64,000 bases of DNA from Oceanospirillaceae bacterium (GTDB taxonomy: Bacteria; Pseudomonadota; Gammaproteobacteria; Pseudomonadales; Litoribrevibacteraceae), in assembly GCA_015665455.1 (NCBI GenBank), contig JADFAD010000003.1, forward strand, positions 186,001 through 250,000, in the 5' to 3' direction. Made by a program: the position numbers and the translations under genes. Numbering within the stretch: the stretch's first letter is position 1; each line of letters starts with the position of its first letter. The notes beneath the pieces were generated by a model. It made no database searches. It had not been told where the DNA came from and saw only the letters and a list, made by a program, of their open reading frames with translations. Of the stretch, positions 16,732 to 21,634 are shown in pieces.

Positions 16732-17169
16732 TTAGTTTTCAGGAATAAGAAAGTGAGCTCGAGCAGTAGTAATAGGCTCGCCACGTGTTTTTTGCCAAGC
16801 GTAAATTGAAACATTTGCAACTCTTTTTCCTTGACGCGTTAATTCACATTCGACAAATGTATCTTGATAATAGCCTGCCCTCAAATAATCTATAGAAAAA
16901 TCTACTATTTTTGGAAGCTTCGGCACATCTTGGAACATCATTAAATATAAAGCAGCTGACAATTCCATAAATCCACCAATGACACCGCCATGAATCGCAG
17001 GTAATAAAGGGTTGCCAATATTACTTTTATTCGCCGGCAACTTAAAAATCACATCATCGCCAAACCGCTCACATGTCACCCCAATTTTTTTAGCGTATGG
17101 AATCTCAGCAATCAAGTCGGAATAATCTCCCGTCTCATGAGCCTTCTTTACAAGCTCTCTAACATTCAT
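16732..17169 (-). CDS. PaaI-family hotdog thioesterase, copy 2
   Basis: 145 residues with the hotdog-fold core of the PaaI/YigI group (IHGGVIGGFMELSAAL, then VDFSIDYLRAGY, and C-terminal ARAHFLIPE). Family members hydrolyse acyl- or aryl-CoA thioesters. The usual catalytic Asp/Glu of the long helix is the Glu of GFMEL. It overlaps the upstream hotdog gene by 4 bp (ATGA) and is likely a hetero-oligomer partner or a paralogue of it. The substrate is unknown. Confidence 0.85.
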   Translation of the reverse strand: MNVRELVKKAHETGDYSDLIAEIPYAKKIGVTCERFGDDVIFKLPANKSNIGNPLLPAIHGGVIGGFMELSAALYLMMFQDVPKLPKIVDFSIDYLRAGYYQDTFVECELTRQGKRVANVSIYAWQKTRGEPITTARAHFLIPEN

Positions 17170-17642
17170 GATCTATTTCCTTCTAAAACACGGGTACGGA
17201 AATAGTCCGGCGTGAATTCTGTTCCAAGTCTCATAAAAGTACCAACGCAGTATGCGATAGGATCATTAATATCCTCTTGGTAAGCCGAGCCGCGAGTAAA
17301 CACGACATTACGAGAAATTCTGTAGCACTCAGCAAAACCATAAACAGGTTTGTCCGGTTCTGCAGATTTAAGATAATCAATTCTTAAATCCAATGTAGGA
17401 CAAATCTCAAAGTCATCAAGAGAACAGATCACAGAAGTGCCTGATGCAGTATCCATTAAAGTAGTTATGGCCCCTCCATGCATTATCCGAGTATCTTTAT
17501 TACCAATAAGCTCTTCATTGTAAGGAAGCAATAAGGTTGTTTTCCCGTCGTTTGTAACATTAGATACAGATAGACCTATATCCATACAATGAGCTAACTC
17601 GTCTAAAAAGCGCTGGGCTCTTCCTGTCAATTCTTTATCCAT
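17166..17642 (-). CDS. PaaI-family hotdog thioesterase, copy 1
   Basis: 158 residues with the hotdog signature MHGGAITTLMDTASGTSV (HGG-x9-D, with the catalytic Asp in the helix) and LDLRIDYLKSA. Probably an acyl-CoA thioesterase. Translationally coupled to the following copy through a 4-bp overlap and 37 bp downstream of the DUF599 gene. The two copies are clearly diverged, so this is an old tandem duplication or a heteromeric pair. Confidence 0.87.
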   Translation of the reverse strand: MDKELTGRAQRFLDELAHCMDIGLSVSNVTNDGKTTLLLPYNEELIGNKDTRIMHGGAITTLMDTASGTSVICSLDDFEICPTLDLRIDYLKSAEPDKPVYGFAECYRISRNVVFTRGSAYQEDINDPIAYCVGTFMRLGTEFTPDYFRTRVLEGNRS

Positions 17643-17679
17643 ATAGGTACCACATTAAAAATGACTGTAAAAACAATGA

Positions 17680-18369
17680 CTAATCAGAACGTCCTCTAAT
17701 AAGTGCTTGCAATGTACTTGAGTGAAATTCGCGATAATATAAAACGGCAACAACCAATAAAGTAACAGCAATAAATACTGGGGTATTTATAAACCAAGTT
17801 AAGAATGCCATTCCAAAATAATACCCTCTCAACCCTAGATTAAAGTGCTTACCTGCATTATCAATAACCTTCGCGGCAGAGCTTGCAAACGCTTCTTTCC
17901 GTCCTGCTGAAATATTAGGATCATCCACAATTGGGGCAGCACCGATCATCACAGAACAAAACCCGTACTGCCTTAAACACCAAGAAAACTTGAAGAATGA
18001 ATAGGCAAAGATTGAAATCAGAACTAACAGTTTGAGATGCCAATGCCCCGTTTTTTCGAAGTATATAAAATCAACATCAGTTAGAAAAACTTCAACTTTA
18101 TCTATGGACCCCAAAGCGGTAATTAAACCGGCAAGAATAATAATTGAAGTAGACGCAAAGAAAGCCGCATTTCTTTCAAGATTTGAGACAATTGCAGCAT
18201 CAGCCACTCGATTATCCCGTGTTATAACCTTTAGCATCCAATCATAGCGATAGTTATGTAAAGCACTTGAAAGCGCATCTTTACTCTTTGCTAATATACG
18301 AGACAGATGAACGTAACCAATCCACATAACAAAGAAAAACAGCAAAGGCACTAAATCAAATAAATTCAT
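17680..18369 (-). CDS. DUF599 integral membrane protein
   Basis: 229 residues with four membrane segments (about 4-22, 70-90, 110-130 and 185-210). The N-terminal YDWM and RDNRVADAAIVSNLERNAAF match the DUF599 family. Function unknown. The AGGAGATGTTCA site gives a clear start. It leads a leftward operon with the two thioesterases and the Sm-like membrane protein. Confidence 0.85.
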   Translation of the reverse strand: MNLFDLVPLLFFFVMWIGYVHLSRILAKSKDALSSALHNYRYDWMLKVITRDNRVADAAIVSNLERNAAFFASTSIIILAGLITALGSIDKVEVFLTDVDFIYFEKTGHWHLKLLVLISIFAYSFFKFSWCLRQYGFCSVMIGAAPIVDDPNISAGRKEAFASSAAKVIDNAGKHFNLGLRGYYFGMAFLTWFINTPVFIAVTLLVVAVLYYREFHSSTLQALIRGRSD

Positions 18370-18433
18370 TGAACATCTCCTGAGTGCTGAATTCTATATC
18401 AAAATTAGATTCGTACAACATTTTACGGTTCAA

Positions 18434-19546
18434 CTAGTCAAAAAATCGTCGAAATAGCTGAACAACGTTATACGTCAACCGCTCTAAAACTTTTGACAAA
18501 ATGTGTCTCTTAGTCCAATTGGCAGGATCAATTAATGTGGAGGATCTTGTTTTTGAAAGATAGAACGATTCAAGCTCTGAAATAAATGAGGGCTCCGAAC
18601 TCGAGAAATTAAGCTCTTGATTAAAACGTATGCTTAGAATGTCTAAATTAAAAGATCCAATGGTTGCCCAATCATCAATAATAATAATTTTGCTATGCAA
18701 AAAACGATCATCAATTTCATGAATACAAACACCAGACTGCAACAGCCGTTTATAACGACCTCTGGCTAAGTATTTCATAAAGAGCACATCGGTTAGACCT
18801 GGCAATAAAAGCCGAACATCAACGCCAGCATTGGCTTTCGCTTCTAAATACTTAATTATCTTTTTAGTTGGGTAAAAATAAGCACTGTTAATCCAAATCC
18901 GTTGTCTTGCTGCATTAAGCTTCAAGTACACCGCGCGTTTGATCCAGTGAGTCGAAAATCGATGTGCGTATAGCCAGCCTTCAAGGTTATATTGATAAGG
19001 CGAGAAAGAAGACGCAATGTTTCTACGTTTACTTTTAAGCTTCCTATACTTCCATTCGTAGAGTTGGCAGACATTTTTGACACTCGAATCAGATATGCGA
19101 ACCATAAGTTCTGACCAAAGTGACTGATTCGTTCTTGGATTAAAAAAAGCATCGGTTATACCGGCACCACCCGTATATGCAACCGTCCCGTCTATAATAA
19201 AGAGTTTAATATGAGTGCGTCTCAAATTAGCAGCTGTGAACCTAAACCGGACAGGGTTATAAATGAGAAGGTCTATATTCTTATGTAAATTTAAAGCCGC
19301 AATGTCTCCTGTAACAGACCAACTACCAAATCCATCGAAAACACCTTTAACAATCACATTATTGTCAGCAATGGCTAATAACAATGCTTGAAATTCATTC
19401 CAAAGAAGACCGGGTTCGACCAAATAGTTCTCTATATATATGGAGTGTTTTGCTTGCTTAAGGTCATTAAAGATGGAAGGGAAAAAATTACAGCCATCAA
19501 TGAGTATTTCGGGAGAAGAATCGAGGGGGGGGGGCTCATTGATCAT
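18434..19546 (-). CDS. Phospholipase D / cardiolipin synthase-like protein, possibly phase-variable
   Basis: 370 residues with two HKD motifs: HIKLFIIDG near residue 112 and HSKIIIIDD near residue 287, followed by GSFNLD. This fits the ClsB-like cardiolipin synthase group (transphosphatidylation of phosphatidylglycerol), although other PLD reactions are possible. No N-terminal membrane anchor is evident. The ATG at 19546 is followed at codons 5-8 by ten consecutive C residues. A second, out-of-frame ATG lies 7 bp downstream, before the tract, and would be in frame if the tract had 11 or 8 C. The ribosome-binding site is poor, and the gene may be read through from the suc operon. Confidence 0.88.
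   Translation of the reverse strand: MINEPPPLDSSPEILIDGCNFFPSIFNDLKQAKHSIYIENYLVEPGLLWNEFQALLLAIADNNVIVKGVFDGFGSWSVTGDIAALNLHKNIDLLIYNPVRFRFTAANLRRTHIKLFIIDGTVAYTGGAGITDAFFNPRTNQSLWSELMVRISDSSVKNVCQLYEWKYRKLKSKRRNIASSFSPYQYNLEGWLYAHRFSTHWIKRAVYLKLNAARQRIWINSAYFYPTKKIIKYLEAKANAGVDVRLLLPGLTDVLFMKYLARGRYKRLLQSGVCIHEIDDRFLHSKIIIIDDWATIGSFNLDILSIRFNQELNFSSSEPSFISELESFYLSKTRSSTLIDPANWTKRHILSKVLERLTYNVVQLFRRFFD
19525..19534 (-). repeat. C10 homopolymer in the first codons of the PLD gene
   Basis: Ten consecutive G on the plus strand (C on the coding strand), the longest G/C run I see in this A+T-rich window. Tracts of this kind at a gene start slip during replication and switch reading frame. Confidence 0.95.
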
Positions 19547-19560
19547 AAAGAAGATTCAGG

Positions 19561-19583
19561 CGCGGTAGAATTAATCTACCGCG
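19561..19583 (-). terminator. Hairpin after sucD, weak terminator or attenuator
   Basis: Perfect 9-bp arms CGCGGTAGA and TCTACCGCG around a 5-base loop, 10 bases past the sucD stop. On the minus strand it is followed by a poor U-tract (CCTGAATCTTCTTT), so termination may be partial and feed the PLD gene, whose start is 14 bp further on. Confidence 0.6.
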
Positions 19584-19593
19584 TCCAACGAAA

Positions 19594-20466
19594 TTACCAA
19601 CCAGTAACTTCTTTTAATGCATCACCAATTTGTGCCAAAGATCGCACTGTTTTAACGCCAGCATCTTCAAGTGCTGCAAATTTTTCATCCGCAGTACCCT
19701 TTCCGCCAGAAATAATTGCACCTGCATGGCCCATTCTTTTGCCTTTTGGCGCTGTAACACCGGCAATGTATGAGACAACTGGCTTAGTAACATTGGCTTT
19801 AATAAACGCAGCAGCTTCTTCTTCAGCACTACCACCAATTTCACCAATCATTACAATTGCTTCAGTTTTTGGGTCATTTTGGAACATTTCCAAAATATCA
19901 ATAAAGTTAGACCCAGGAATAGGATCACCACCAATACCTACGCAAGTCGATTGGCCAAACCCATAATCGGTAGTTTGCTTAACTGCTTCGTACGTCAAAG
20001 TTCCAGAACGAGAAACTATACCAACCTTACCAGGTAGATGGATATGACCAGGCATGATGCCTATTTTACACTCACCAGGAGTGATAACTCCCGGACAGTT
20101 AGGACCAATTAAACGAACACCCAGTTCGTCGCAACGAACTTTGGCATCCAGCATATCTAATGTTGGGATACCTTCAGTAATACATACAATGAGTTTAATG
20201 CCCGAATTTGCTGCTTCAAGGATTGAATCCTTACAGAACGGCGCAGGTACATATATTACCGATGCTTCTGCACCCGTTTGCTCAACCGCTTCTGCAACAG
20301 TATTAAAAACAGGTAACCCTAAATGAATCTGACCGCCTTTGCCTGGTGTAACACCACCAACCATCTGAGTTCCGTATTCAATTGCTTGCTCAGAATGAAA
20401 CGTACCCTGACCACCAGTAAATCCCTGGCAAATTACCTTAGTATTTTTATCGATTAAGATAGACAT
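19594..20466 (-). CDS. sucD: Succinyl-CoA synthetase, alpha subunit
   Basis: 290 residues. Forms the alpha-beta enzyme with SucC that makes ATP/GTP from succinyl-CoA. The CoA-binding Rossmann part has [14 protein letters not shown] and the ligase part has the phosphohistidine segment [17 protein letters not shown]. It starts one base after the sucC stop codon. It ends the suc operon and is followed by a hairpin. Confidence 0.97.
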
Positions 20467-20467
20467 G

Positions 20468-21634
20468 TTATTTTCCCTCCGCAGCTTTTACAGCTTGTTG
20501 AGCTGCATCCGTTAGACTTGTTGCAGCAATAATGTTTAAACCGCTCTCAGCAAGTTTCTGAGAACCCAGTTCAGCATTATTACCTTCCAATCTAACAACA
20601 ACAGGGACTTTAACACCCACCTCTTCAACCGCACCAATGATGCCTTCAGCAATCATGTCACAACGAACAATGCCACCAAAGATATTTACTAGAACAGCCT
20701 TTACGTTGTCATCCGACAAAATAATTTTAAAGGCTTCGGCCACACGTTCTTTTGTTGCACCGCCACCTACATCTAAGAAGTTCGCAGGGAACCCCCCATG
20801 CAGTGCAACGATATCCATGGTGCCCATAGCTAAGCCAGCGCCATTGACCATACAACCAATAGAACCATCTAAAGCGACATAATTAAGTTCAAACTTTGCG
20901 GCATGTGCTTCACGCTCATCTTCTTGAGATGGATCATGCATCTCTTGAAGGTCTTTATGGCGATAAACAGCATTACTATCGATACCTAACTTTGCATCTA
21001 AGCAATGCAAGTCTCCGTCTTTTTTGATAACAAGCGGATTAATTTCAATTAACGCAAGATCTTTGTCTGCAAAAAGCTGTGCTAAACCAACAAAGATTTT
21101 AGTAAATTGCTTTATCTGATCGCCTTGCAAGCCAAGCTTAAAGGCAAGCTCGCGCCCTTGATAAGGCTGAGGACCAGCTAGAGGATCGATCGTAGCCTTA
21201 AGAATTTTCTCAGGTGTTTCTTCTGCAACTTTTTCAATTTCGACACCACCTTCTGTAGAAGCCATAAATACGATTCTACGGGTAGCGCGATCAACTACAG
21301 CACCAAGATATAGCTCTTGTTCAATGTCAGTACAGCTTTCAACAAGAATCTTGCTTACAGGCTGCCCATTTTCGTCTGTTTGGTAGGTGACTAGATTTTT
21401 TCCAAGCCATTGACTAGCAAAAGCACTCGCTTCATCAGCTGATTTAATCAACTTGACTCCACCTGCTTTACCACGACCGCCAGCATGAACTTGAGCTTTA
21501 ACAACCCATTCAGTACCGCCAATCTTATTCGTAGCTTCTGCTGCTGCTTCTGGAGTGTCTACTGCGTATCCTTCAGAAACAGGTAATCCATATTGCTTAA
21601 AAAGCTGTTTACCTTGATATTCGTGCAGATTCAT
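20468..21634 (-). CDS. sucC: Succinyl-CoA synthetase, beta subunit
   Basis: 388 residues, the length of the E. coli subunit. It opens with the family start [12 protein letters not shown], then an ATP-grasp domain ([15 protein letters not shown]) and a C-terminal ligase domain ([15 protein letters not shown]). An AAGGAAGGT site precedes the ATG. It lies 55 bp after lpdA. Confidence 0.97.

Follow-up and report, generated by a model that had tools for sequence, protein, structure and literature searches.

This locus raises the question of whether a run of ten C residues near the start of a PLD-family gene, with start codons in two different frames ahead of it, is a switch that selection has shaped or a mutable run that has been tolerated. 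The gene opens ATG ATC AAT GAG CCC CCC CCC CTC and lies in a 64,000-nucleotide stretch of an Oceanospirillaceae genome (the window, Table 1). The first-pass annotation had placed a C10 tract in codons 5-8, one ATG in frame at C10, a second in frame at C11 or C8, and a third class of tract lengths in the off state; all of this is borne out by the sequence and by a frame table that we computed for tract lengths C6-C14, considering ATG, GTG and TTG as starts. At C6, C9 and C12 none of these codons opens the PLD-family gene, because a TGA in that frame sits just before the tract, and the off-frame products are 12-38 aa long. The layout thus has two marks of a contingency gene, a long simple repeat inside the open reading frame and, from frame arithmetic alone, a product turned on or off by changes of repeat length; it also has starts in two frames ahead of the repeat, as in lic-type genes with multiple starts. 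By its mutability the tract is a candidate contingency locus in which selection for switching is possible, and by its nature it is expected to slip. The reading that we consider probable, if far from assured, is nonetheless that a slippage-prone C10 is tolerated in a disordered leader and is most likely not a switch that selection has shaped.

Table 1. Features of the PLD-family gene and its surroundings (positions in the window)
Feature	Position	Strand	Remarks
DUF599 gene	17680..18369	-	downstream; same order in G001
PLD-superfamily ORF, ClsB-like (PLDc_2 + PLDc)	18434..19546	-	370 aa
C10 tract	19534-19525	- (G10 on plus)	codons 5-7 and first base of codon 8
TGA of the third frame	19536..19538	-	overlaps ATG2, directly 5' of the tract
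ATG2	19537..19539	-	7 nt downstream of ATG1; in frame at C8, C11, C14 (frame table)
ATG1	19544..19546	-	in frame at C7, C10, C13 (frame table)
Stem-loop, 9 bp	19561..19583	-	between sucD stop and ATG1; z -4.5, no canonical T run
sucD-like gene (name presumed)	19594..20466	-	upstream, same strand

The proposed identity of the product as a PLD or cardiolipin-synthase-like enzyme stands, on Pfam and NCBIfam matches, on conserved residues and on predicted structure. Pfam PLDc_2 and PLDc are matched above cut-off. The NCBIfam models PRK11263 (ClsB; E 3.5e-47, 161 bits against a cut-off of 281) and bac_cardiolipin (171 bits against 290) are matched below their equivalog cut-offs despite strong E-values, and on these scores the product would not be classed as a ClsB equivalog; it resembles E. 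coli ClsB in its two HKD motifs, its similar length and the PRK11263 match, and differs in that it falls short of the equivalog score. Residues H112, K114 and D119, together with H284, K286 and D291, which make up the two HKD motifs, are invariant in all 12 aligned sequences. An AlphaFold model (pLDDT 85.6, pTM 0.86) has PLD-superfamily structures as its top Foldseek matches. The product has the two HKD catalytic motifs and the predicted PLD fold required of a PLD-type cardiolipin synthase, and is a probable cardiolipin-making enzyme. No other PLD-type Cls-like gene was found in the genome; PLDc_2 matches occur at two other places, in a 227-aa NucT-like protein and in a 703-aa ORF that is presumably a polyphosphate kinase. 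We rejected as unproven the view that the genome has no cardiolipin synthase of another kind, given a 183-aa CDP-alcohol phosphatidyltransferase (L090) that scores 107.5 with the pgsA model (cut-off 109.1) and 78 with the CDP-alcohol-type cardiolipin synthase model (cut-off 240). We infer that a change in tract length would affect lipids; with L090 present, however, cells in the off state would not necessarily lack cardiolipin.

In the predicted model residues 1-10 have a mean pLDDT of 59 and the first strand begins at residue 13, and the tract accordingly appears, in that model, to encode a poorly ordered leader ahead of the folded domain. Most matches to homologues begin no earlier than residue 6-18 of the product, and the leaders differ in both length and sequence. 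Because the leader is disordered and the first strand starts only at residue 13, all in-frame variants should yield the same folded enzyme. A history can be proposed in which the homopolymer grew to ten C within the disordered leader at the N terminus of a ClsB-like PLD-type gene. Replication slippage there would add or remove a C at a raised rate, so that a minority of cells in the population would carry C9, with the gene off, or C11, with a full-length product started at ATG2. Selection against the tract would be weak, since residues in the leader can vary and only one of the three frames lacks a start, and reversible on/off variants would arise as a by-product of a tolerated mutable run.

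The strongest competitor, which we regard as unlikely but deserving of serious weight, is a selected three-state switch in which C10 gives one level of enzyme via ATG1, C11 or C8 another via ATG2, and C9 or C12 none, with differences in cardiolipin from cell to cell. The frame table fits it, a frameshift at codon 5 would be fully disabling, and the position of the gene as the only PLD-type Cls-like one found in the genome speaks for it as well. So does the upper tail of C/G run lengths. In the window the C10 exceeds every other C/G run, the next longest being C6 and G5, and it is one of four C/G runs of at least 10 in the 4,846,406-base genome. Counted on both strands, there are 74 runs of exactly 7, 13 of exactly 8, and six of at least 9 (two C9, three C10 and one C12). 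Extrapolation of a constant 7-to-8 step predicts 0.5-1 runs of at least 10, against the four observed (Poisson P 0.0016, or 0.036 with the uncertainty of the step carried through), an excess that is modest and that was tested after the tract had already been seen. Even so, runs of at least 10 are somewhat commoner than extrapolated, which favours the selected switch and counts against a merely tolerated run.

Two further observations count against the tolerated run. The genome contains a MutS match, so that the tract may be fairly stable; the same match led us to reject loss of mismatch repair as the cause of the tract. In addition, three of the other five tracts of at least 9 lie in or beside envelope-type genes, encoding a Wzy_C/PglL_A ligase, a Calx-beta lipoprotein-like protein and a DUF3034 protein, a setting that resembles that of contingency loci.

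Against the selected switch, the two elements that make the layout look designed are each fairly likely by chance. Among 36 ATG-started ORFs (drawn from 57 non-overlapping ORFs chosen in the window, leaving out those with other starts or at the window edges), 8 have an out-of-frame second ATG no more than 15 nt from the start, and a second ATG near the start is therefore not beyond chance. For 4,000-4,800 genes, at least one of the four long tracts would fall within the first ten codons of a gene with a probability of ~0.10, or ~0.15 if all six tracts are counted. The genome's own C8 tracts all lie inside ORFs (13 of 13) and are scattered across gene positions; several of the genes concerned are presumably housekeeping genes, judging by their sequences.

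The translation signals likewise argue against it. No Shine-Dalgarno sequence was found at ATG1 or ATG2 (+0.4 kcal/mol), compared with -2.8 to -10.0 kcal/mol for ten neighbouring genes, eight of them at -5.7 or lower, and it follows that which of the two starts would be the stronger, and by how much, is not predictable. The orthologue in genome G001, which belongs to another genus, has a similarly weak site (-1.5). In that genome, too, a stem-loop lies in the gap from the sucD stop to the start of the PLD gene (z -3.8). The stem-loop in the window does not form a canonical terminator, no promoter-like site was found on the strand of the gene between 19400 and 20500, and an Rfam scan of 17000-21000 returned no match.

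G001 is the only other genome of the same family among 56 genomes and among the 50 listed of 390, and the source genome is the only one of its genus in the same two sets. Both genomes share the order sucA-sucB-lpd-sucC-sucD, PLD gene, DUF599, two thioesterases, a further gene and htpG, in which several gene names are our own reading of the sequences. The G001 orthologue is syntenic and 55% identical, and it has no tract, a further point against the selected switch. A C/G run of at least 8 is absent from all 36 homologue loci searched (L010-L038, L080-L086), and conservation of the tract in relatives, a supporting though not strictly defining mark of contingency genes, was thus not seen. The first-pass annotation had named, among its grounds for abandoning the switch, a tract replaced in relatives by synonymous non-repetitive codons; the lack of a tract in G001 agrees with part of this, as a comparison that is weak at 55% identity. 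We also considered whether long C tracts characterise the family and rejected this, with a C10 somewhere in 36 of the 56 genomes of the order and none in the nearest relative, G001.

Similar arrangements have been described elsewhere, and genes with simple sequence repeats (SSRs) and starts in two frames are an already known kind. Haemophilus influenzae lic1A has three starts across two frames (PMC4019658), and for Neisseria it is described that alternative starts at 5' SSRs can move translation from one active frame to another (PMC5084427); together these lend the selected switch a precedent. Like the gene studied here, lic1A and lic2A have a coding SSR, multiple starts in two frames and one repeat class that is off, but they are lipooligosaccharide (LOS) genes with tetranucleotide repeats that vary among isolates, whereas here we have a mononucleotide tract in one genome. 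The first-pass annotation had called phase variation unexpected for a phospholipid enzyme, which is too strong. Helicobacter pylori pldA (outer-membrane phospholipase A), also a phospholipid-active enzyme, is phase-variable via a G tract (section 12 of PMC2831843; PMC11756786), although it belongs to another enzyme family and its tract lies about two-thirds into the ORF. Closer in product, the cardiolipin synthetase gene HBZC1_01860 of Helicobacter bizzozeronii CIII-1 is tabulated as putatively phase-variable through a T9 homopolymer (Table 4 of PMC3234257); that tract has the localisation M, taken as mid-gene, unlike the C10 described here, which lies at codon 5 and is preceded by two starts. 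In a Staphylococcus epidermidis variant, cls2 is tabulated in a section on homopolymeric-tract frameshifts (PMC10620731). An experimentally proven phase-variable cardiolipin synthase was not found in a literature search of limited reach. More generally, PMC2831843 (abstract and section 12) reports poly(A) and poly(T) tracts as enriched at 5' ends, with poly(C) and poly(G) not overrepresented in most genomes.

The most far-reaching version of the switch appears to us improbable: slippage would set three levels of the one PLD-type cardiolipin synthase of a non-model gammaproteobacterium, tract length would pick the start, and membrane cardiolipin would vary stochastically between cells. The evolved multi-state design implied by the first-pass annotation found no support, with a nearby second ATG and a 5' position each fairly likely by chance, no Shine-Dalgarno sequence at either start and a close relative that has no tract.

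A real tract whose length was misread in the assembly, the true length being anywhere from C9 to C11 or a mixture, is a more doubtful explanation still. Homopolymers are error-prone in several sequencing methods, and since C10 and C11 both give a full-length product, an open frame does not fix the length; on the other side, the ORF is intact at C10, and the two other C/G tracts of at least 9 that lie well within ORFs leave those intact too. We consider it very unlikely that the tract acts in translation, with a proline tRNA slipping on the CCC run so that some full-length protein is made at every length and DNA slippage matters little: there are three prolines in a row near the start, and E. 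coli tRNA-Pro(UGG) shifts to the +1 and +2 frames on a CCC-CG slippery sequence (PMC4519876), but that was shown for a different sequence.

Were the switching true, the bet-hedged trait would be membrane lipid composition and not a surface antigen, and the two-start layout would make it simple to test whether a mononucleotide tract gives graded output. If instead the tract is not a switch, it is a caution that a long tract with a second ATG can seem designed and yet be fairly likely by chance.

The remaining long tracts of the genome (G000) are of some interest in their own right. A C9 (L040:4550-4558; G000 C1:432549-432557) lies at about codon 209 of an intact gene for a 601-aa Wzy_C/Wzy_C_2/PglL_A ligase, and is a candidate for phase variation of a more classical kind than the C10 of the PLD gene. 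A G10 (L043:5053-5062; G000 C2:603052-603061) lies in an intact gene whose 827-aa lipoprotein-like product has DUF7151 and Calx-beta domains, and a G9 (L039:2704-2712; G000 C6:35703-35711) in the start region of the DUF3034 gene, where it could influence translation start; the gene just upstream we take to be of GGDEF/EAL type. The longest C/G run of the genome, a C12 (L041:4273-4284; G000 C1:450272-450283), falls between ORFs on the same strand with DCC1-like and DSBA-like genes nearby, and another C10 (L042:4658-4667; G000 C2:399657-399666) follows, by a few bases, what appears by eye to be a tRNA-Asp gene. Finally, two separate G8 tracts occur within one 643-aa gene (L059/L060; G000 C9:29802-30825) that, again by eye, resembles a nucleotide-sugar enzyme of polysaccharide biosynthesis.
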